Shown piece after piece: positions 2,577-10,787 of a stretch of 12,869 bases of DNA. The position numbers and the translations under genes are program-made. The stretch's first letter is position 1. Each line of letters opens with the position of its first letter. Below the pieces are notes generated by a model that saw only the letters and a list, made by a program, of their open reading frames with translations, ran no database searches and was not told the DNA's origin. Source of the stretch: Actinomycetota bacterium (GTDB lineage Bacteria > Actinomycetota > Thermoleophilia > Gaiellales > Gaiellaceae); the NCBI GenBank assembly GCA_016870235.1, contig VGCB01000016.1, forward strand, positions 1 through 12,869, read 5' to 3'.

Positions 2577-2678
2577 CTCCGTTCTCCTTGTCGAGTGAGG
2601 TCGCAACATCATCGTCGATCGGGCCTGCCGAGGCATCGCGCCCTGCCGGCACGCGAGAGAGACGGTGCGTCGCTTCGG

Positions 2679-2684
2679 TACTCT
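2679..2684 (+). promoter_or_regulatory. Putative -10 hexamer TACTCT of a leaderless promoter
   Basis: TACTCT ends 7 nt before the ATG at 2692 and no Shine-Dalgarno sequence precedes that ATG. This fits an actinobacterial TANNNT -10 with transcription starting at or next to the start codon. No convincing -35 is seen. Confidence 0.4.
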
Positions 2685-2691
2685 CGCTGCG

Positions 2692-3048
2692 ATGGAGAGC
2701 GCGCACCGGTTCATCGGGGCGGCCGCGGTCGGCGTGTGCGTCGTCGCCGCGCTCGTCGGCGGCATCGTCTACTGGCGCCGCCGCGGCGCCGGGCAGATCA
2801 CGACCCACCTGCTCGCCCTCGGCCAGACGCTTCTCGTCGCGCAGGTCGGGATCGGGCTCCTGCTCCTCGCCGACGAACGCCGCGCAGCCGAGCAGCTCCA
2901 CTACCTGTACGGCTCGCTCGCGCTCGGCGCCGCCCTCGCGCCGTGGTTCTACGCACCGGCCGAGGGGCCGAAGCGCCTCCTCTGGTTCGCCGGCCTGCTC
3001 CTGCTCGCGGGGGTGCTCGCGACGCGCGCCTGGATGTCAGGCGAGTGA
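2692..3048 (+). CDS. Small four-helix membrane protein of unknown function (118 aa)
   Basis: I do not recognise this family. Four hydrophobic segments at about 7-28, 39-60, 70-87 and 95-113 are separated by short basic or acidic loops, for example YWRRRGAG and ADERRAAEQ. The third helix opens with LHYLYGS; a His there could bind a cofactor such as heme, but nothing confirms it. The ATG at 2692 is preferred over an upstream GTG at 2665 because it begins MESAHRF directly before the first helix and has a well-placed -10 hexamer. The next small membrane gene starts 28 nt downstream, so the two probably form an operon. Confidence 0.75.
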   Translation: MESAHRFIGAAAVGVCVVAALVGGIVYWRRRGAGQITTHLLALGQTLLVAQVGIGLLLLADERRAAEQLHYLYGSLALGAALAPWFYAPAEGPKRLLWFAGLLLLAGVLATRAWMSGE

Positions 3049-3075
3049 GGCGGCGATGAGCAGCGTGGAACGACG

Positions 3076-3453
3076 ATGAGTAGAGCGCGGAGGATCTGGG
3101 AGAACCGGGCCGTCCGCGGCTTCCTGATCATCGCCCTGATCGCGGGCGTGATCACCGCCGCGCAGCTCGAGGCGACGCTCGACGTCGTCGGCGGGCTCGT
3201 CCGGATCGCGTTCTTCCTCGCGATCGCCTTCTTCCTCTTCCTCCTGTGGCGCGAGCGGCGCGGCGACCTCGAGGCGTGGAGCGACCGCAACCGGAGGGTC
3301 TTCTACGGCGCCATCATCCTCGCAGTCGTCGACATCGGGGCCGTGATCGGGCTGACGCCCAGCGGCCTCGACGCGGTCGCGTTCTTCCTCGTGCTCGCCG
3401 CCTGCGGCTACGCCGTGTTCCGGACGTGGCGCGCCGAGCGGGTCCTTCATTAG
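3076..3453 (+). CDS. Small four-helix membrane protein of unknown function (125 aa)
   Basis: I do not recognise the family. A basic N terminus (MSRARRIWENRAVRG) is followed by hydrophobic segments at about 14-30, 38-58, 75-94 and 98-115, with a charged cytoplasmic-type loop WRERRGDLEAWSDRNRR between helices 2 and 3. It ends in WRAERVLH. The ATG at 3076 has only a weak GGAA upstream, consistent with translation coupled to the gene ending at 3048. The stop at 3451-3453 lies 5 nt before the large hairpin of repeat copy 1. Confidence 0.75.
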   Translation: MSRARRIWENRAVRGFLIIALIAGVITAAQLEATLDVVGGLVRIAFFLAIAFFLFLLWRERRGDLEAWSDRNRRVFYGAIILAVVDIGAVIGLTPSGLDAVAFFLVLAACGYAVFRTWRAERVLH

Positions 3454-3672
3454 TGCCTGGCCGTTCTTCTCGCGCGTCCGGTGGTCGAGGGACCGACGTA
3501 CCAGACGCGCGAGAAGAACGGCCCCGCTCGGATAGGACTGGGGCTCGGGTCGAGCGCTTCGTTCCCTGAAGCCAGGGGAACGAGGTTCCCCTTGGGAACC
3601 CCTCCGGCACTCGAGTCCTGCATCAACCCTTCCGCGTCTGGCTTCAGTTCAGCCAGACGCGTCCAACGGACG
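3454..3672 (+). repeat. Hairpin-rich interspersed element, copy 1
   Basis: This non-coding element of about 215 bp aligns along its length, roughly four-fifths identical by eye, with the reverse complement of 4793-5006. Reading away from the upstream gene it holds a 24-bp stem-loop at 3459-3523. Two overlapping short hairpins follow: AGGGGAAC at 3574-3581 pairs with GTTCCCCT at 3585-3592, while GGTTCCC at 3584-3590 pairs with GGGAACC at 3594-3600. Next come an 11-bp palindrome (CGCGTCTGGCT at 3633-3643 with AGCCAGACGCG at 3651-3661) and a terminal CGTCC-AAC-GGACG at 3660-3672. The sequence CGCGTCTGG or its complement recurs in both big stems. Orientation is given relative to the gene it follows. 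Confidence 0.85.
3459..3523. terminator. Large stem-loop of repeat copy 1, possible bidirectional terminator
   Basis: The arms at 3459-3482 and 3500-3523 are 24 nt each with a single mismatch (C3479 opposite A3503) and a 17-nt loop. The stem lies between two convergent genes, 5 nt after the stop of the membrane protein gene and about 200 bp beyond the hemQ stop. No T run follows on either strand, so it is not a textbook intrinsic terminator. An mRNA 3'-end stabiliser or a purely structural repeat arm is equally possible. Confidence 0.4.
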
Positions 3673-3724
3673 CCGGAACCGATTGGGCGGGCGAGTGCGG
3701 GTAGGAGCCGGTGGCGGAAGCTCG

Positions 3725-4459
3725 CTACGCCTCGACGCGGGTGGACGCGCCGTCCAAGGCGTCGAGCGCCGAGCGGATGTCGAGGAGGCGGCCGACGAAG
3801 ATGGGGGTGTCCTGCTGCGTCCAGCGGGAGGCCTCGGTTTCGCGCAGGGTCATCATCAGGTGCATGAAGTCGGCCGGCTCGTCGCACTCGAAGGCGGGCA
3901 TGAACTCCTGGTCGTCGAGCCCGAACGAGTAGGTCGTGTGGTTCGTCACCGTCACGAACTTCCCGCCGACCTCGGCGTGCTGGCGCATTGCGTCGACGCG
4001 CTCCTCGAACGGCAGGAAGTACCACGGCCGCGACTTCACGAACGGGTAGACGACCAGGTAGCCGGCGTTCCGCGGAATCACCTTGCCGGCGCGGATCCGC
4101 TTCTTGTCCGTGTAGACCGACGGCTTCGTCGTCGCCGTGTACGAGCGCGGCGTCTCCAGCCAGCCGGCGAGTGGGGTGGCGTTGAGCGCGCTCGCGAGGT
4201 CGAGCAGGTCGTCCCAGCGGCTCGTGATCTGCCAGAGGAAGAAGTCCGCCTCGGCGCGGATCCCCGTCACCGAGTAGGCGCGGAGGCCCTCCATGCGGCC
4301 GGCGAAGTCCTCGACCACCTCGGCGAAGGCATCCTTGCCGGCGATCCGATCCTCGACAGGGAGCCTGCGCCACGCGGGATCCACCCGGAAGAACCGGTAG
4401 CTGACGTACTGCCCGACCTCGACGCCCTCGATCCGCTCGTATGCAGGCTTCTCGCTCAT
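3725..4459 (-). CDS. hemQ: Chlorite-dismutase-family heme protein, probable coproheme decarboxylase (244 aa)
   Basis: In monoderm bacteria HemQ/ChdC converts iron coproporphyrin III to protoheme with peroxide, the last step of the coproporphyrin-dependent heme pathway. The protein has the family's two-part ferredoxin-like fold. Motifs include YPFVKSRPWYFLP (138-150), where Tyr138 aligns with the catalytic Tyr of ChdC, and MRQH (158-161), where His161 fits the proximal heme ligand. TTYSFGLDDQEF (175-186) is the conserved Cld core. Thirteen residues after the proximal His, true chlorite dismutases carry Arg and firmicute HemQ carries Gln; here it is His174, arguing against chlorite dismutation. 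The ATG at 4459 has a TACCAT 6 nt upstream. No other heme gene is adjacent. A general heme peroxidase of the same family is the alternative. Confidence 0.85.
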   Translation of the reverse strand: MSEKPAYERIEGVEVGQYVSYRFFRVDPAWRRLPVEDRIAGKDAFAEVVEDFAGRMEGLRAYSVTGIRAEADFFLWQITSRWDDLLDLASALNATPLAGWLETPRSYTATTKPSVYTDKKRIRAGKVIPRNAGYLVVYPFVKSRPWYFLPFEERVDAMRQHAEVGGKFVTVTNHTTYSFGLDDQEFMPAFECDEPADFMHLMMTLRETEASRWTQQDTPIFVGRLLDIRSALDALDGASTRVEA

Positions 4460-4465
4460 GTGACC

Positions 4466-4471
4466 ATGGTA
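4466..4471 (-). promoter_or_regulatory. Putative -10 hexamer TACCAT for hemQ
   Basis: On the minus strand TACCAT ends 6 nt before the hemQ ATG and there is no ribosome-binding sequence, which suggests a leaderless transcript. No clear -35 is present. Confidence 0.4.
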
Positions 4472-4542
4472 CGCCCGCCCGCATGGCTTCGCCTCGGTGT
4501 GCAGCGAGCCCAGTTGCGCGAGAACGCGGCCGGGCTCTCCAA

Positions 4543-4645
4543 AGGAGGGTCTTCAAGGGGAGCCTGAGGTTCCGCTGGTCTCAGGAGACGAGGTGCCCAA
4601 ACCCGGACCGACGCTCTCTGCCTGAGCGGGTGTGTTCTCGGCGTG
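4543..4645 (-). repeat. Decayed element copy, same orientation as copy 2
   Basis: By eye this aligns with about 4858-4955 of copy 2. Shared landmarks in the same order are AGGGGA, GAGGTTCC, CTGG followed by CTCAGGA, ACGAGG and GTGTTCTCG. Many substitutions and small indels have removed the strong hairpins. A real alignment is needed to fix its ends. Confidence 0.45.
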
Positions 4646-4674
4646 ACGGCGCAAACCGATGATCTGCTGAAGTC

Positions 4675-4745
4675 GGACGCGGAAGCGCGAGAGAGCCCAG
4701 ATCCTGAAGCAGGGGAATGTCCCCCTGACCCCCTCAGAGACACCA
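4675..4745 (+). repeat. Decayed element copy, same orientation as copy 1
   Basis: CTGAAGCAGGGGAATGTCC at about 4703-4721 resembles copy 1 from 3567 (CTGAAGCCAGGGGAACGAGG) and continues with CCCCCTGA and CCCCTCAGAG. GCGCGAGAGAGCC upstream resembles the right stem arm. The match is short and partly low complexity. Confidence 0.35.
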
Positions 4746-4792
4746 GCACGGGGTTCGTGGCTTCGGTATTTTGACACCGAGGTGGACCACGA

Positions 4793-5006
4793 CGTCCGTT
4801 GGACGCGTCTGGCTGAAGCCAGACGCGGAACAAGCTGGTGCAGGATCCGTGAGATCGAGGGGTTCCCTAGGGGAACGGAGTTCCCCTGGCTTCAGGAAAC
4901 GAAGCACAAGACTCGAGCCCCAGTCCTACACCAGTGGGGCCGTGTTCTCGCGCGTCTGGTACCTCGGTCCCACACCCCACCAGACGCGCGAGAACACGGC
5001 CAAGCA
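4793..5006 (-). repeat. Hairpin-rich interspersed element, copy 2 (inverted)
   Basis: This is the reverse-complement counterpart of 3454-3672. On the plus strand it starts with CGTCCGTTGGAC and a palindrome with 11-nt arms, CGCGTCTGGCT at 4804-4814 and AGCCAGACGCG at 4817-4827. The loop here is 2 nt against 7 nt in copy 1, which carries CTGAA twice. Two competing hairpins follow: GTTCCC 4862-4867 with GGGAAC 4871-4876, and AGGGGAAC 4869-4876 with GTTCCCCT 4880-4887. The perfect large stem-loop is at 4938-5001. Read from the minus-strand gene that ends at 5012, the order of parts is the same as in copy 1. Confidence 0.85.
4938..5001. terminator. Large stem-loop of repeat copy 2, possible terminator
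   Basis: Arms at 4938-4960 and 4979-5001 are perfect 23-nt complements around an 18-nt loop. The structure begins 10 nt after the stop codon of the minus-strand hydrolase gene. There is no T tract. The stem differs from that of copy 1 near its base, and both arms changed together so that pairing is preserved. Confidence 0.45.
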
Positions 5007-5011
5007 TGCAA

Positions 5012-6460
5012 TCAGCGGAGCACGACCGGGCCCGTGAGGACGACGGACGGCGTTCCCGGGTTGAACGGGCTCTGCATGGTGATCTCGAACGACACGGGCC
5101 CCGGCCCGAGCTTCCGCGGCAGCTCGGCGCGCACGGGAACACCGGCGAGCCCGTAGCCGCGGAGCGCGAGCGCCTGGGCGCCCGAGGCCCGGAGCATCCG
5201 CACCTGCCAGCTGCAGTCGAGCGAGCACGAGAAGGACACCGCGGCCTCGCCGCTCCGAATCTCGTCGAGCGTCGGCGGGCGGACGTCGTTCGCCTGGACG
5301 TCGAGGAAGAGCACGCTGCAGCGACCGATCGAGCCGCCGCGCACCCGCCGCATCGCGTCGCGCACGCTCCAGAAGCTCGTCTTCGGCGTGCCGTCGGCGT
5401 AGTAGATCCCCGACTGCCAGCCGGTGAGCCCCCGCTCGTCCTCGGTATGGAAGAGGAGGAGCCCGGTGACGTTCGGCTGGCAGAACGCGAGCCGCATCGC
5501 GGTCGCGTAGAAGTGCGCCTGGACACGCTCGGTCACGAGCTGCACCGTCGCAGGCTCGGTGCCGCTGTAGAGCGGCGCCTTCGCGGCCGGGATCTGCGCC
5601 TCCACGCCGAACTCGTCGTACAGGATCGGCAGCGTCGAGCCCGTCTGCCCGGTGCCGTCGAAGGCCGCACCGAGCGCGGCGATCAGCTTGTCGTAGTCGG
5701 CGAGCCCGATCGTGGTCGAGGTCGGATGCGGCGTGTCGGGCGCCTGCGCGCTCGAGTCGGCGTACGGGTGGAACGCGAGACCGTCCATGATCGGGCGCGT
5801 GCGCCCGCTCGCCCGGTAGGCGGCGCCGAGATCGCGCAGGAACGCCCCGGGAGAGGTCGTGTGGCGGATGCCGTTCGGCCGGTCGGCGCCGCGCGGCGCG
5901 AGCGCCCCGCCCCACACGGTCACGTCCGGGGCGACAGTCTTGACGACGTCGTAGACGCGCGCGAGGAGGTTGAAGAACGCGGGCCCGGACGCTCCCGTCC
6001 CGTCGGGGTTGAACTGCGGGAGCCAGAAGCGGTTGAGGTTCGGCTCGTTGCCGATGATGATCTCGCGGAACGACGGGAACGCGGACACGAGCGCGCCGGC
6101 GTACTGGGCGAACTCCTCGCGCGCCTGGTCGGTCAGCGGCGTCGTCCGCGAGCCGGGGTGGTAGACCTGGACGATCACCCTGACGCCCGTAGCCTGCGAG
6201 GCCGCGTCCACGTTCTGGAGGATCTGCGCCTCCTCCGGCGTCGGGGCGGCGAGCCCGGGCTGCCAGTACGAGGTGACCCGCACGGCGTCGAAGCCGGCGA
6301 GCCGCAGGAGCGTCATCTTCGCCTTCGCGACGGCCGGGTCGGACGAGCGGACGACGTCCTCGGCCGCGCCCACGATCATCGTCGGACCGCCGGCCGAGGC
6401 GCCCGGAACGACGATGGCAGCAGCGACGACCGCGACGGCAAGTGCAAGCAGGCGACGCAC
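5012..6460 (-). CDS. Secreted glycoside-hydrolase-like protein with TIM-barrel fold (482 aa)
   Basis: An N-terminal signal peptide (MRRLLALAVAVVAAAIVVPG, cleavage likely after ASA at 21-23) indicates export. The body resembles clan A retaining glycosidases (GH5/GH39-like): DAVRVTSYWQPG early in the barrel and IIIGNEPNLNRFW with Glu139 as the probable acid/base. AFHPYADS follows at 229-236, and LPILYDEFGVEAQ has Glu283 as the probable nucleophile. After about residue 380 a separate beta-rich C-terminal part contains CSVLF and SCSLDCSW, whose cysteines may form disulfides. The substrate cannot be inferred. The GTG start at 6460 is shared-spacer divergent with uvrC. The 3' end abuts repeat copy 2. 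An exact GH family would need a profile search. Confidence 0.8.
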   Translation of the reverse strand: MRRLLALAVAVVAAAIVVPGASAGGPTMIVGAAEDVVRSSDPAVAKAKMTLLRLAGFDAVRVTSYWQPGLAAPTPEEAQILQNVDAASQATGVRVIVQVYHPGSRTTPLTDQAREEFAQYAGALVSAFPSFREIIIGNEPNLNRFWLPQFNPDGTGASGPAFFNLLARVYDVVKTVAPDVTVWGGALAPRGADRPNGIRHTTSPGAFLRDLGAAYRASGRTRPIMDGLAFHPYADSSAQAPDTPHPTSTTIGLADYDKLIAALGAAFDGTGQTGSTLPILYDEFGVEAQIPAAKAPLYSGTEPATVQLVTERVQAHFYATAMRLAFCQPNVTGLLLFHTEDERGLTGWQSGIYYADGTPKTSFWSVRDAMRRVRGGSIGRCSVLFLDVQANDVRPPTLDEIRSGEAAVSFSCSLDCSWQVRMLRASGAQALALRGYGLAGVPVRAELPRKLGPGPVSFEITMQSPFNPGTPSVVLTGPVVLR

Positions 6461-6485: not shown

Positions 6486-8339
6486 ATGGACCCGTCACAG
6501 CTCGAGACGCTTCCGCGCGCGCCCGGCGTCTACCTGTTCAGGGACGCCGACGACGACGTGCTCTACATCGGCAAGGCGAAGTCGCTCCGCGCCCGCGTCC
6601 GCACCTACTTCAACCGCGGCGACGGACGACCCGGGATCGATCGAATGGTCGCCCGGGCGGCCCGCGTCGAGGTGATCGTCACGCAGAGCGAGGCCGAGGC
6701 CCTGCATCTCGAGCAGAACCTGGTCAAGCGCCACCGGCCCCCGTACAACGTCCGGCTCCGTGACGACAAGTCGTTCCCGTACATCGCCGTGACGATGTCG
6801 GACGAGTTCCCGCGCGTCATGTTCACGCGCGAGCGGCACCGTCGCGGGAACGTCTACTTCGGCCCCTACGCCAACGCGAAGAAGGTGCGAGAGACGCTCG
6901 ACGTCCTCAACCGCGTCTTCCAGTTCCGCCCGTGCGAGGGGCCCAAGCCCGGGCGGCACTCGGGCATTCCGTGCCTCGACTTCCACATCGAGCGTTGCAC
7001 GGCGCCGTGCATCCGCGCCATCTCACGGGAGGAGTACGCGGCGCTGATCGACGGCGTCGTCGCCTTCCTCTCCGGCGACACGGCCACGATCCAGCGCCAG
7101 CTCGAGGAGCGGATGCGGCTCGCCGCCGCGGAGGAGCGGTTCGAGGACGCGGCGCGGTACCGCAACCGGCTGTTCGCGATCCGCAGCCTCGCCGAGCGCC
7201 AGGCGGCCGACCGCCGAGCGGTCGGGTCGGTCGACGTGATCGGCCTGGCGGTGGACGGCGACCGCGCCGCCGTCCAGGTGTTCCCGCTCCGCGACGGGCG
7301 CCTGATCGACCGGTACGCGTTCCATCTCGAGAACGTCGACGGCCAGGACGTGCCGACGATCCTCGAGTCGTTCTGCCTCGAGTACTACAGCGCCGCGCCA
7401 GCCGTGCCGTCCGAGGTGCTCGTCCCGGCAGGCGCGGGCGAGACCGAGGCGCTCGCCTGGTTCCTCGGCGAGCTCCGCGGCGCGGCCGTCCAGGTGCGGG
7501 CGCCCCAGCGCGGCGAGAAGCGCCGGCTCGCCGACCTCGCCGCCGAGAACGCGCGCGTCGCGCTGGAACGCGACGCCACGGTCGCGGAGCAGAAGCGCCT
7601 GCGCCGGATCGAGGCGCTCGAGTCGCTGCGGGAGACGCTCAACCTTGAGTCGCTGCCGGTACGCATCGAGTGCTTCGACGTCTCGAACCTGCAGGGGCGC
7701 GAGATCGTCGCCTCGATGTCAGTGTTCGTCGACGGCCAGCCACGGCGGTCGCTCTACCGCACCTTCGCGATGCGCGACCTCGACGGTCAGGACGACTTCG
7801 CCGCGATGGGCCAGGCCGTCGAGCGGCGGTTCGCGCGGCTGCGCGACGCGGCCGATCCGTCCCGTCACGACGAGTCCTTCGCGCAGGCGCCGAACCTCGT
7901 CGTCGTCGACGGCGGCAAGGGCCAGCTCGCCGCCGCGCTGGAGGCGATCCAGCTGACGCCCGAGCTCCAGCGCCTCGCGGTCGTCTCGCTCGCCAAGCGG
8001 GAGGAGGAGGTGTTCGTGCCGGGCCGCCCCGATCCGATCCGGCTCGAGCACACCGACCCGGGCCTCCAGCTCCTGATGCGGATCCGCGACGAGGCGCACC
8101 GGACGGCGATCGGGCTTCACCGCCGGCGCCGCGACACGCGTGCGTTCGAGTCGATCTTCGACGGGCTCGAGGGGATCGGCCCCGCGCGCCGGCGTGCGAT
8201 CCTCAAGCACTTCGGCACAGCCGAGCGGTTCCTCGCCGCTTCGCAGGAGGAGCTCGAGGGCGTCCCCGGCCTCCCGGCCCGCACGGCGAGGTCGGTCTAC
8301 GCGCAGCTGCACAAGGCGGGCCCCGCCGGCCCGGCCTGA
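6486..8339 (+). CDS. uvrC: Excinuclease ABC subunit C (617 aa)
   Basis: UvrC makes both incisions around bulky DNA lesions in nucleotide excision repair, working with UvrB after UvrA loads it. All domains are present. The GIY-YIG nuclease (3' cut) has GVY at 14-16, YIG at 27-29 and catalytic Glu76. The cysteines C150, C163, C171 and C175 match the [4Fe-4S] ligand pattern reported in UvrC. The UVR/UvrB-binding segment is at about 203-235. The RNase H-like nuclease (5' cut) has Asp398 in CFDVSN, Asp475 in VVVDGGKGQ and His538 in RDEAHRTA. Tandem helix-hairpin-helix motifs occupy about 558-607. Length is typical. The gene is convergent with the next one, 22 bp away. Confidence 0.98.
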   Translation: MDPSQLETLPRAPGVYLFRDADDDVLYIGKAKSLRARVRTYFNRGDGRPGIDRMVARAARVEVIVTQSEAEALHLEQNLVKRHRPPYNVRLRDDKSFPYIAVTMSDEFPRVMFTRERHRRGNVYFGPYANAKKVRETLDVLNRVFQFRPCEGPKPGRHSGIPCLDFHIERCTAPCIRAISREEYAALIDGVVAFLSGDTATIQRQLEERMRLAAAEERFEDAARYRNRLFAIRSLAERQAADRRAVGSVDVIGLAVDGDRAAVQVFPLRDGRLIDRYAFHLENVDGQDVPTILESFCLEYYSAAPAVPSEVLVPAGAGETEALAWFLGELRGAAVQVRAPQRGEKRRLADLAAENARVALERDATVAEQKRLRRIEALESLRETLNLESLPVRIECFDVSNLQGREIVASMSVFVDGQPRRSLYRTFAMRDLDGQDDFAAMGQAVERRFARLRDAADPSRHDESFAQAPNLVVVDGGKGQLAAALEAIQLTPELQRLAVVSLAKREEEVFVPGRPDPIRLEHTDPGLQLLMRIRDEAHRTAIGLHRRRRDTRAFESIFDGLEGIGPARRRAILKHFGTAERFLAASQEELEGVPGLPARTARSVYAQLHKAGPAGPA

Positions 8340-8361: not shown

Positions 8362-9321
8362 TCAGTCGTCGACCGGTGCGGTCGGCGGCCGGGTCGCGTT
8401 CCGTGCCTTGCGGATCGCGCCGCGCACGCGGAACGTCCGGAGGGTGAGCGCGATCGCGGCGAACGCCAGGACGACGTTGACGACCGTGAGCGTGATCTTC
8501 ATGCCGACGCTGAACGGCACGACGACGCTCGCGGGCGCCACGCCCTTGAACACGAAGGCGATCAGCGCCTGCTCGGTGCCGACGCCTCCCGGGCTGATCG
8601 GGATCAGCGTCGCGATCGACTGCGTGACCTGGACGAGGAGCACGTTGCGCACGGACTGCTCGATCCCGAAGGCGCCGAGGAAGAACCAGATCGCGACGAA
8701 CCGGAGCGCCCAGTCGCAGAGCTGCCAGAAGACGACGGTACGCAGGTACCGCGACCGTGGCCGGAAGACGTTGAGCGACTGCGCCAGATGCTCCCGCAGG
8801 TGCCCGACACGCTCGCGGACGAGGATGACGAGCACGACGACGAGGATCGCGATCGCGACGATCGCGCCCTGCCCGACAGCCGGAGGGTCGAAGAACCAGC
8901 GGAAGTCGAACGACGGCAGCGACGGTAGGACGTCGAGGCTCGGCAGCACGCCCTGGGTGAGCGCCCAGAGGAAGAGGACGAGCGCAAGGGAGGAGTCGAC
9001 GATGCTGAGGACGAGGCTCGAGGCGATGACGGTCGGGTACGAGGCACCGGGGATCGCACGATGCGCGAACCAGACCCGCACGACGTCGCCGGAGCGGGCC
9101 GGCAGGATCGAGTTGATCCCGACGCCCGCGACATAGGCGCCGTAGATCGAGCGGAACGGAACCTTGACGCCCGGGTACGCCGCGGCGAGGACGTTCCGCC
9201 ATGCCCGCCCGGTGCACAGCGTCTTGACGAGGTGGCACGCGATCGCGAGGGCGAGTGGGACGAGCTCGATCGCGGACAGGTAGCCCCAGAACTCCTGGAT
9301 CGCGTCGATGATCCTGTCCAT
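8362..9321 (-). CDS. UPF0104/MprF-type integral membrane protein (319 aa)
   Basis: The protein resembles the membrane domain of lysylphosphatidylglycerol synthase (MprF), a family of flippase-like proteins that move or modify lipids, without the aminoacyl-transferase domain. About seven or eight hydrophobic segments are seen, from about 18-38 through 275-295. The two family landmarks are present: NSILPARSGDVVR (70-82) and PISPGGVGTEQALIAF (241-256). A short basic tail ends PPTAPVDD. The lipid substrate is not known; actinobacterial members often serve glycolipid or isoprenoid-lipid biology. The ATG at 9321 has TAGGTT 6 nt upstream and no Shine-Dalgarno sequence. Confidence 0.85.
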   Translation of the reverse strand: MDRIIDAIQEFWGYLSAIELVPLALAIACHLVKTLCTGRAWRNVLAAAYPGVKVPFRSIYGAYVAGVGINSILPARSGDVVRVWFAHRAIPGASYPTVIASSLVLSIVDSSLALVLFLWALTQGVLPSLDVLPSLPSFDFRWFFDPPAVGQGAIVAIAILVVVLVILVRERVGHLREHLAQSLNVFRPRSRYLRTVVFWQLCDWALRFVAIWFFLGAFGIEQSVRNVLLVQVTQSIATLIPISPGGVGTEQALIAFVFKGVAPASVVVPFSVGMKITLTVVNVVLAFAAIALTLRTFRVRGAIRKARNATRPPTAPVDD

Positions 9322-9626: not shown

Positions 9627-10787
9627 TCAGCGGAGGGTGCGGTAGAACGCGCGGATGTCCTCGACGAGCCGCTCGGGCTCCTCCATCGGGTGGAAGTGGC
9701 CGCCGCTGGGCATCTGGGTCAGGCGCTGCAGGTTGTAGTAGCGCTCCATGAACGGCGTCGGCATGTGGGCGAGCTCCTGCGGCCACAGGCTGATCGCGGT
9801 CGGCGCCTCCACCTGCGGCCAGCGGTCGTGCGACGGCGACCAGAGGTTGTGGAGCGCCTCCCAGTAGTACCGCATCGAGCTCACGATGCTCTCCGTCACC
9901 CAGTAGAGGGTCATCGTCGTCAGCAGGTCGTCCTTGCTGAACCGGCTCTCGACGTCGCCGTTCGCGTCGCTCCAGCTCCGCCGCCGCTCGAGGATCCACG
10001 CGCACAGGCCGACGGGCGAGTCCTCGAGGGCGTAGGCGAGGGTCTGCGGATCGGTGGTCTGTACGGCGACGTGGCTCGTCGCCACCTCGAACCGCTTCAT
10101 CGTGTGGTGGTAGCGGTGCTTCTCGCGGTCGGGGTAGTCGTCCTCGGTCGGCAGCCCGTTCGAGAAGAAGTCGAGGGGGAAGCAGAGGCCGAGATGGATC
10201 CCGATCAGGTGCTCGGGATAGCGGTGGCCGAGCTGCGCGGTGACGAGCGCGCCCCAGTCGCCACCGTGCGCGGCGAAGCGGTCGTAGCCGAGCACGTCGC
10301 GCATCAGCGCGACCCACATGTCCGCCGTGCGGGAGAACTCGATCCCGGTCCGCGTGAGCGGTGTCGAGAAGCCGAACCCGGGAAGTGACGGCACGACCAC
10401 GTCGAAGCTGTCGGCCGGGTCGCCGCCGTGCGCGGCCGGGTCGCTGAGCGGGCCGATCACCTTGTGGAAGTCCCAGTACGTCCAGGGCCAGCCGTGGGAG
10501 AGGACGAGCGGGATCGGGTTCGGCCCGCGCCCGGGCTCGTGCACGAAGTGGATCGGGACGCCGTCGATGTCGGCCCGGAAGTTCGCGAACGCGTTCATCG
10601 CCTGCTCGTGGCCGCGCCAGTCGTACCCGTCGAGCCAGTAGGCGACGAGCTCCTCGAGGTAGGCGCGGTTGGTGCCATAGCGCCAGTCGTCGTTCGCGAC
10701 GTCGAGCGGGAGCCGTGCGCGCCGCAGCCGATCGCGCAGGTCGTCGAGGGTCGACTGCGGGACGGAGATCTCGAACGGGGTCTTCAC
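9627..10787 (-). CDS. Epoxide hydrolase, microsomal type with EHN domain (386 aa)
   Basis: Enzymes of this alpha/beta-hydrolase family open epoxides to diols through a covalent aspartyl ester. The N-terminal EHN region covers about 1-105 (FEISVPQSTLDDLRDRLRRAR, then DWRYGTNRAYLEELVAYW). HGWP (98-101) forms the oxyanion-hole loop. The nucleophile is Asp177 in AHGGDWGA, the base is His364 in SGGHFHPMEEP, and Glu338 in WPQELAHMP sits where the charge-relay acid is expected. Length is typical. The GTG start at 10787 is supported by GAGGAGG about 7 nt upstream. The natural substrate is unknown; detoxification is a guess. The gene lies downstream of pruA on the same strand across a 126-bp spacer. 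Confidence 0.92.
   Translation of the reverse strand: MKTPFEISVPQSTLDDLRDRLRRARLPLDVANDDWRYGTNRAYLEELVAYWLDGYDWRGHEQAMNAFANFRADIDGVPIHFVHEPGRGPNPIPLVLSHGWPWTYWDFHKVIGPLSDPAAHGGDPADSFDVVVPSLPGFGFSTPLTRTGIEFSRTADMWVALMRDVLGYDRFAAHGGDWGALVTAQLGHRYPEHLIGIHLGLCFPLDFFSNGLPTEDDYPDREKHRYHHTMKRFEVATSHVAVQTTDPQTLAYALEDSPVGLCAWILERRRSWSDANGDVESRFSKDDLLTTMTLYWVTESIVSSMRYYWEALHNLWSPSHDRWPQVEAPTAISLWPQELAHMPTPFMERYYNLQRLTQMPSGGHFHPMEEPERLVEDIRAFYRTLR

Follow-up and report, generated by a model that had tools for sequence, protein, structure and literature searches.

The window, by which we mean the whole 12,869-nucleotide (nt) stretch of DNA analyzed here (G+C content, 70%), contains two diverged copies of an element in inverted orientation. 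In both copies long palindromes are preserved, and each copy lies at the 3' end of an open reading frame (ORF), on the same strand as the ORF that has just ended. Copy 1 occupies positions 3454-3675 of the plus strand (222 bp), and copy 2 occupies positions 4790-5006 of the minus strand (217 bp). The two copies are separated by approximately 1.1 kb and both fall within 1.6 kb. We propose that they are members of a small stem-loop repeat that is intergenic and non-autonomous, comparable in general kind to YPAL/RU-2, bcr and composite REP elements. This reading is the most economical one, and we give it about an even chance of being correct. Apparently undescribed, the element would belong to the small stem-loop repeats of bacteria, a well-known class.

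Aligned over their whole length with one copy inverted, the two copies were identical in 182 of the 224 columns, with 33 substitutions and 9 gap columns. The local alignment score between them was 233, compared with a best score of 28 in 300 dinucleotide shuffles. This confirmed that the two-copy observation is beyond chance. An earlier sequence-only reading had proposed a full-length inverted pair at 3454-3672 and 4793-5006; the alignment upheld this pair and extended its edges to 3454-3675 and 4790-5006. The same reading had assigned copy 1 to the minus strand. In our alignment copy 1 is on the plus strand, and its arms read alike on either strand. A covariance model gave scores of 262 bits for copy 1 and 254 bits for copy 2, from which these scores are not independent, the model having been built from these same two sequences. 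Apart from the two copies, its only matches in the window were the copies' own palindromes on the opposite strand.

The genes of the window were examined by a Pfam scan of eight ORFs. The scan identified a family 2 glycosyltransferase (733-1875), a chlorite dismutase/HemQ-family gene (3725-4459, minus strand), uvrC (6486-8339), a lysylphosphatidylglycerol-synthase-type membrane gene (8362-9321, minus strand) and an epoxide hydrolase (9627-10787, minus strand). A cellulase-type gene (5012-6460, minus strand) was barely over the Pfam cut-off, and the ORF at 2665-3048 had no match. The ORF upstream of copy 1 (3076-3453), presumably a real gene, matched TauE below the cut-off only. No transposase and no TnpA or TnpB were found among the eight ORFs.

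The two repeats flank the HemQ gene, one on each side. Copy 1 starts directly after the TAG stop codon (3451-3453) of the 3076-3453 ORF, and its first hairpin (H1) begins 5 nt past this stop. Copy 2 starts 5 nt past the TGA stop codon of the cellulase-type ORF, and its H1 begins 10 nt past the stop. Copy 1 thus lies between convergent ORFs, with 49 nt from its end to the stop codon of the HemQ gene, and copy 2 lies between co-directional ORFs, upstream of the HemQ-like gene. Such a location just past the end of an ORF, with the next ORF either convergent or co-directional, is REP-like, as far as can be said from two copies only.

Three hairpins dominate the element. From the 5' end, the order is H1, a linker, H2, a second linker, H3 and a small hairpin (CGTCC-AAC-GGACG). 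In copy 1, H1 (3459-3523, plus strand) has arms of 24 positions (3459-3482/3500-3523) with one C.A mismatch and a 17-nt loop. In copy 2, H1 (4938-5001, minus strand) has a perfect 23-bp stem (4938-4960/4979-5001) and an 18-nt loop. We compared these stems with the longest stem found elsewhere, allowing at most one mismatch and a span of at most 110 nt. The longest stem was 24 in the window, 14 when the elements were removed and 13 to 16 in eight dinucleotide shuffles. The stem of 23 to 24 bp described earlier for each copy was borne out.

The stem of H2 is 8 bp long (AGGGGAAC/GTTCCCCT) and is the same in both copies, with different loops. H2 reads AGGGGAAC-GAG-GTTCCCCT in copy 1 (3574-3592, plus strand) and AGGGGAAC-TCC-GTTCCCCT in copy 2 (4869-4887, minus strand). 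An overlapping alternative hairpin (GTTCCC..GGGAAC in copy 1) extends to 3599 and 4862, respectively, and two mutually exclusive hairpins are therefore possible in both copies (3574-3599 and 4862-4887). The 5' side of H2 is, by reading of the sequence, complementary to part of H3 over 10 nt (CTGAAGCCAG/CTGGCTTCAG), and this complementarity is kept in both copies.

H3, a palindrome with arms GCGTCTGGC..GCCAGACGC, is located at 3634-3660 in copy 1 (plus strand) and at 4805-4826 in copy 2 (minus strand). H3 and H1 have a 9-bp core, CCAGACGCG, in common. This core occurs exactly seven times in the window (four times on one strand and three times on the other), and all occurrences are inside the two copies. 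Compared with copy 2, the H3 loop of copy 1 is enlarged by a 5-nt insert, a tandem duplication of TTCAG, the stem remaining intact.

The stems have diverged less than the rest of the element. Differences between the copies were found at 3 of 94 stem positions and at 30 of 121 positions elsewhere, excluding the 9 gap columns (Fisher p = 6e-6, a flattering value, since the stems were picked after seeing the fold). In a simple neutral simulation with 20,000 trials, both H1 stems were this intact with a frequency of 0.00005 at the linker rate and 0.002 at the overall rate. The lower divergence of stem positions indicates that the palindromes have been maintained. When the fold of one copy was transferred to the other via the alignment, H1 of copy 2 retained 23 of the 28 pairs of the copy 1 fold, and H1 of copy 1 retained 22 of the 27 pairs of the copy 2 fold; by reading, the lost pairs fall within the gapped block and the loop. 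For H3 and the small hairpin together, the corresponding values were 13 of 14 and 10 of 10. In contrast, the structure of the central domain is not well conserved between the copies: 30 of 35 pairs of the copy 1 fold were kept in copy 2, and 29 of 40 pairs of the copy 2 fold were kept in copy 1. The proposal that pairing has been kept while the sequence drifted is supported for the hairpins, the drift being in the linkers, and is not supported as a general statement.

We then considered the two-sided change near the base of H1. The arm letters quoted for it in the sequence-only reading (..GT-TC-TTCTC / GAGAA-GA-AC.. in copy 1 and ..GT-G-TTCTC / GAGAA-C-AC.. in copy 2) are correct. The block TC/GA in copy 1 corresponds to G/C in copy 2, which amounts to one C-G to G-C exchange plus one T-A pair that is present or absent. 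The two-sided change is therefore real, but it is one block in H1 and not the general covariation that had been suggested. RNAalifold scored 2 of 67 pairs as changed on both sides, both of them in weak central helices and none in H1, where the exchange was missed because of gap placement. The C.A mismatch in H1 of copy 1 is uncompensated, and the antisense strand is the only one on which it becomes a G.U pair. A covarying structured family is not established as claimed. The palindromes may have been kept up by selection, by template switching from arm to arm or by both, alternatives that two sequences do not separate.

Direct selection on the fold would make the element a structured RNA, or a control element acting at the RNA level in 3' untranslated regions (3'-UTRs), and the H1 changes would then be truly compensatory. 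In favor of this possibility, both copies are, as RNA, far more stably folded than shuffled sequences, with z-scores of -6.9 (copy 1) and -8.1 (copy 2) and none of 200 shuffles as good for either copy. The low divergence of the stems, the one two-sided change in H1, the mutually exclusive hairpins at H2 and the retained H2-H3 complement point in the same direction. However, the central domains fold differently, and the strand bias is inconsistent, with copy 1 favoring the antisense fold and copy 2 the sense fold. Further, the mismatch of copy 1 can pair on the antisense strand only. A search of the whole window against Rfam (both strands, E up to 1) also argues against a structured RNA: the sole match was to a miRNA, at 25.8 bits and thus far under the cut-off of 83. 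On balance, we regard a directly selected RNA structure as unlikely.

The stem-loop repeat that we prefer is supported by end-to-end homology in DNA between likely genes, by the low divergence of the stems, by the placement close to stop codons, by the 9-bp core confined to the two copies and by the existence of a known class of similar repeats. It would have reached its present positions when two copies were inserted independently, or were copied, beside the 3' ends of two genes. If the upstream gene is transcribed, the copy would become its 3'-UTR. H1 would then fold a few bases past the stop codon, and it might block 3' exonucleases or invite RNase III. The two diverged copies, their preserved palindromes and their position and orientation are observed, and mobility, transcription and any RNA effect are inferred; if the element acts at all, it probably acts as a 3'-UTR hairpin. 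Against the stem-loop repeat stand the presence of only two clear copies, with no further one in the collections searched; their span of 1.6 kb, as a local duplication would give; the 49 nt between copy 1 and the HemQ stop, which is unlike most convergent REPs; and the sub-cut-off Pfam match of the 3076-3453 ORF. Neither a terminal inverted repeat nor an edge duplication was seen, and the eight scanned ORFs include no transposase, which also counts against it.

We searched for further copies. No relative was detected among plasmids and phages by blastn, either with copy 1 or with segment 4460-5010, which includes copy 2 (from 5006 on). Among phages, this segment gave only a 27-nt match, shared by nine Gordonia phage records and located in their integrase gene (E = 0.6), which was taken as chance. 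Seven DNA patterns were used against viral contigs; five gave nothing, and two gave one locus each. These two loci were rejected as relatives: the exact match covered 17 to 18 nt in coding-like DNA with no hairpin, and there was at most one weak longer extension, in one locus (49 nt at 82%, E = 2e-5). Viral contigs were also searched with the HemQ-like protein, and no relative was confirmed. In plasmid records, the best of 28 that matched this protein was from Thermomicrobium roseum (38.5% identity). The earlier statement that no named family fits agrees with these results, none having been found in Rfam, plasmids or phages. A literature search found no paper that describes the element by title or abstract, which is weak evidence given its partial coverage.

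One pattern was used against the species-genome contigs of 84,980 species and yielded 16 loci, 13 in Treponema, Treponemataceae or Spirochaetales, 2 in Chitinispirillum and 1 in Bryobacterales. They had little in common with the element beyond the motif, the longest blastn piece over the motif being 41 nt at 78%, and they were not accepted as relatives. Rather, these loci look like separate short dispersed repeats of spirochaete metagenome-assembled genomes, of Chitinispirillum and of one Bryobacterales genome, which carry the motif TGAAGCCAGGGGAA..TTCCCCT and are often inside ORFs. In a search of 9 of the 16 loci against Rfam, one unrelated glycine riboswitch was found. When the covariance model was used against 26 loci, the best match had an E value of 0.17. 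All pattern scans of these collections report exact matches only, so that diverged copies would escape them.

The group of the Bryobacterales-titled genome was searched with a 20-base element pattern, allowing up to two mismatches. The pattern was found in 2 of 41 genomes, at one place each. With copy 1 DNA as the query, 16 of 297 genomes of the phylum of this genome matched at E <= 0.01. These matches were at most 53 nt long (best E = 1e-4), none was full-length, and they were attributed to chance. HemQ was matched in 17 of 60 genomes of this phylum with a best identity of 45%, showing that these genomes are not close kin. In addition, translations of three element frames were compared with a protein database; they gave 45, 23 and 22 candidates, none with E <= 10.

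The outcome of these searches fits a local inverted duplication of one ordinary piece of intergenic DNA, such as a 3' region with a hairpin, in the absence of any dispersed family. Such an event would account for two clear copies only, inverted and 1.1 kb apart, and nothing convincing was found elsewhere in the searched collections. Against it, with 3445-3690 as the blastn query, similarity was restricted to 3454-3675. It ends at the element on both sides, indicating that the ORFs just upstream were not duplicated along with it. The scrambled fragments at 4490-4785 (see below), although marginal, hint at older relatives. We consider a local duplication unlikely too.

The adjacent substitution and indel in H1, matched in both arms, could also have arisen by arm-to-arm correction, in which a template switch copies the mutation of one arm into the other, and the hairpin persists by the mechanics of mutation and not by selection. 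By our own count, this explanation needs two events, compared with four without template switching. The mechanism has been proposed from the reconstructed histories of RNA genes (PMC8794818). However, copy 1 retains one uncorrected mismatch, and correction leaves the low divergence of the stems and the existence of two copies unexplained. We consider such correction rather unlikely, and it is compatible with a stem-loop repeat. With its long stems and diverged copies, a further family of this type would be material for separating RNA-hairpin selection from template-switch repair of palindromes, for which two copies are only suggestive.

Small repeats of approximately 100 to 200 bp that form long stem loops are an established class (PMC2229807). 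Small stem-loop repeats have been reported from, among others, enterobacteria, Neisseria and Bacillus (PMC2229807, PMC3446304). In a survey of stem-loop sequences, 92 families were found in 40 genomes, 41 of them intergenic (PMC2267715). The Yersinia palindromic sequences YPAL/RU-2 resemble our element, by description only, in being intergenic and not A+T-rich and in having internal instead of terminal inverted repeats; they are also similar in size, at approximately 168 bp compared with 217 to 222 bp (PMC2229807). An influence on the stability of upstream transcripts has been suggested for them (PMC2229807). In contrast to the element so far, YPAL has target duplications of 3 to 26 bp and is abundant in its genomes (PMC2229807). 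With its internal inverted repeats and intergenic location, the element conforms to this type, although its 217 to 222 bp slightly exceed the 100-200 bp range. In our copies, no target duplication was seen at the edges: the 20-nt flanks of copy 1 have at most a 5-nt word in common, which lies off the edges, and those of copy 2 at most a 3-nt word, the boundaries being uncertain. The terminal inverted repeat expected of a MITE was also not found, the consensus fold pairing only 3 bases near the ends (columns 6-8 with 221-223) and reading of the ends giving no longer match.

The GTAG/CGTC REPs and BIMEs are likewise palindromic and are located near the 3' ends of genes whose neighbors are convergent or co-directional (PMC3733652). 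However, REP units are 20 to 40 bp long, and the CGTC types have 8- to 9-bp stems and a terminal tag, whereas our element is a tagless 220-bp unit with a 23- to 24-bp stem (PMC3733652 for the REPs). Convergent REPs are mostly no more than 20 bp from both 3' ends (PMC3733652). No GTAG/CGTC tag was found in either copy: the bases before H1 are TGCCT and TGCTT, and the CGTC after H3 is paired in the next consensus hairpin. The bcr1-bcr18 repeats of the Bacillus cereus group are also intergenic, some being MITE-like and some having a conserved secondary structure; expression was found for approximately half of their copies, many of them as part of UTRs (PMC3446304). They are from another group of organisms, and the likeness is by description only. 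If our proposal is true, the element would add to the record of small stem-loop repeats another family located at the 3' ends of genes, from an organism of high G+C content.

A more specific proposal is a lineage-specific mobile element in which the palindromes at either end, H1 and H3, share the 9-bp core. Such an element would be moved by an enzyme that acts on folded single strands and would target the first bases after stop codons, so that many genes would be given a long 3'-UTR hairpin. Core-sharing hairpins near both ends resemble the ends of single-strand transposons (IS200/IS605-derived MITEs, PATEs), although H1 exceeds the length typical of end hairpins of the IS200/IS605 type. We consider this proposal quite improbable.

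Intrinsic termination was rejected for the main hairpins, as by reading there is no T-tract after H1 or H3 in either copy. A terminator consensus scan of 3000-5600, which was restricted to loops of 3 to 8 nt and hence blind to H1, gave six sites compared with 0.9 expected, none of them on H1 or H3. Of these terminator-like sites, one falls inside copy 1 (3538-3521, minus strand), and three are in 4490-4785 on the plus strand.

The segment 4490-4785, upstream of HemQ, contains scrambled fragments similar to H1, H2 and H3 without a defined strand and is a possible, much-decayed relative. Its similarity to the copies is marginal. In two of four comparisons, the local matches scored above every one of 300 shuffles, by 1 point in one case and 2 in the other, and in the remaining two they were each reached by one shuffle. 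The covariance model found no match in this segment, and its fold is weak (z = -2.1 and -1.6). By eye, a 9-bp inverted repeat that could be chance bounds the segment, with CCTCGGTGT at 4492-4500 and ACACCGAGG at 4774-4782.
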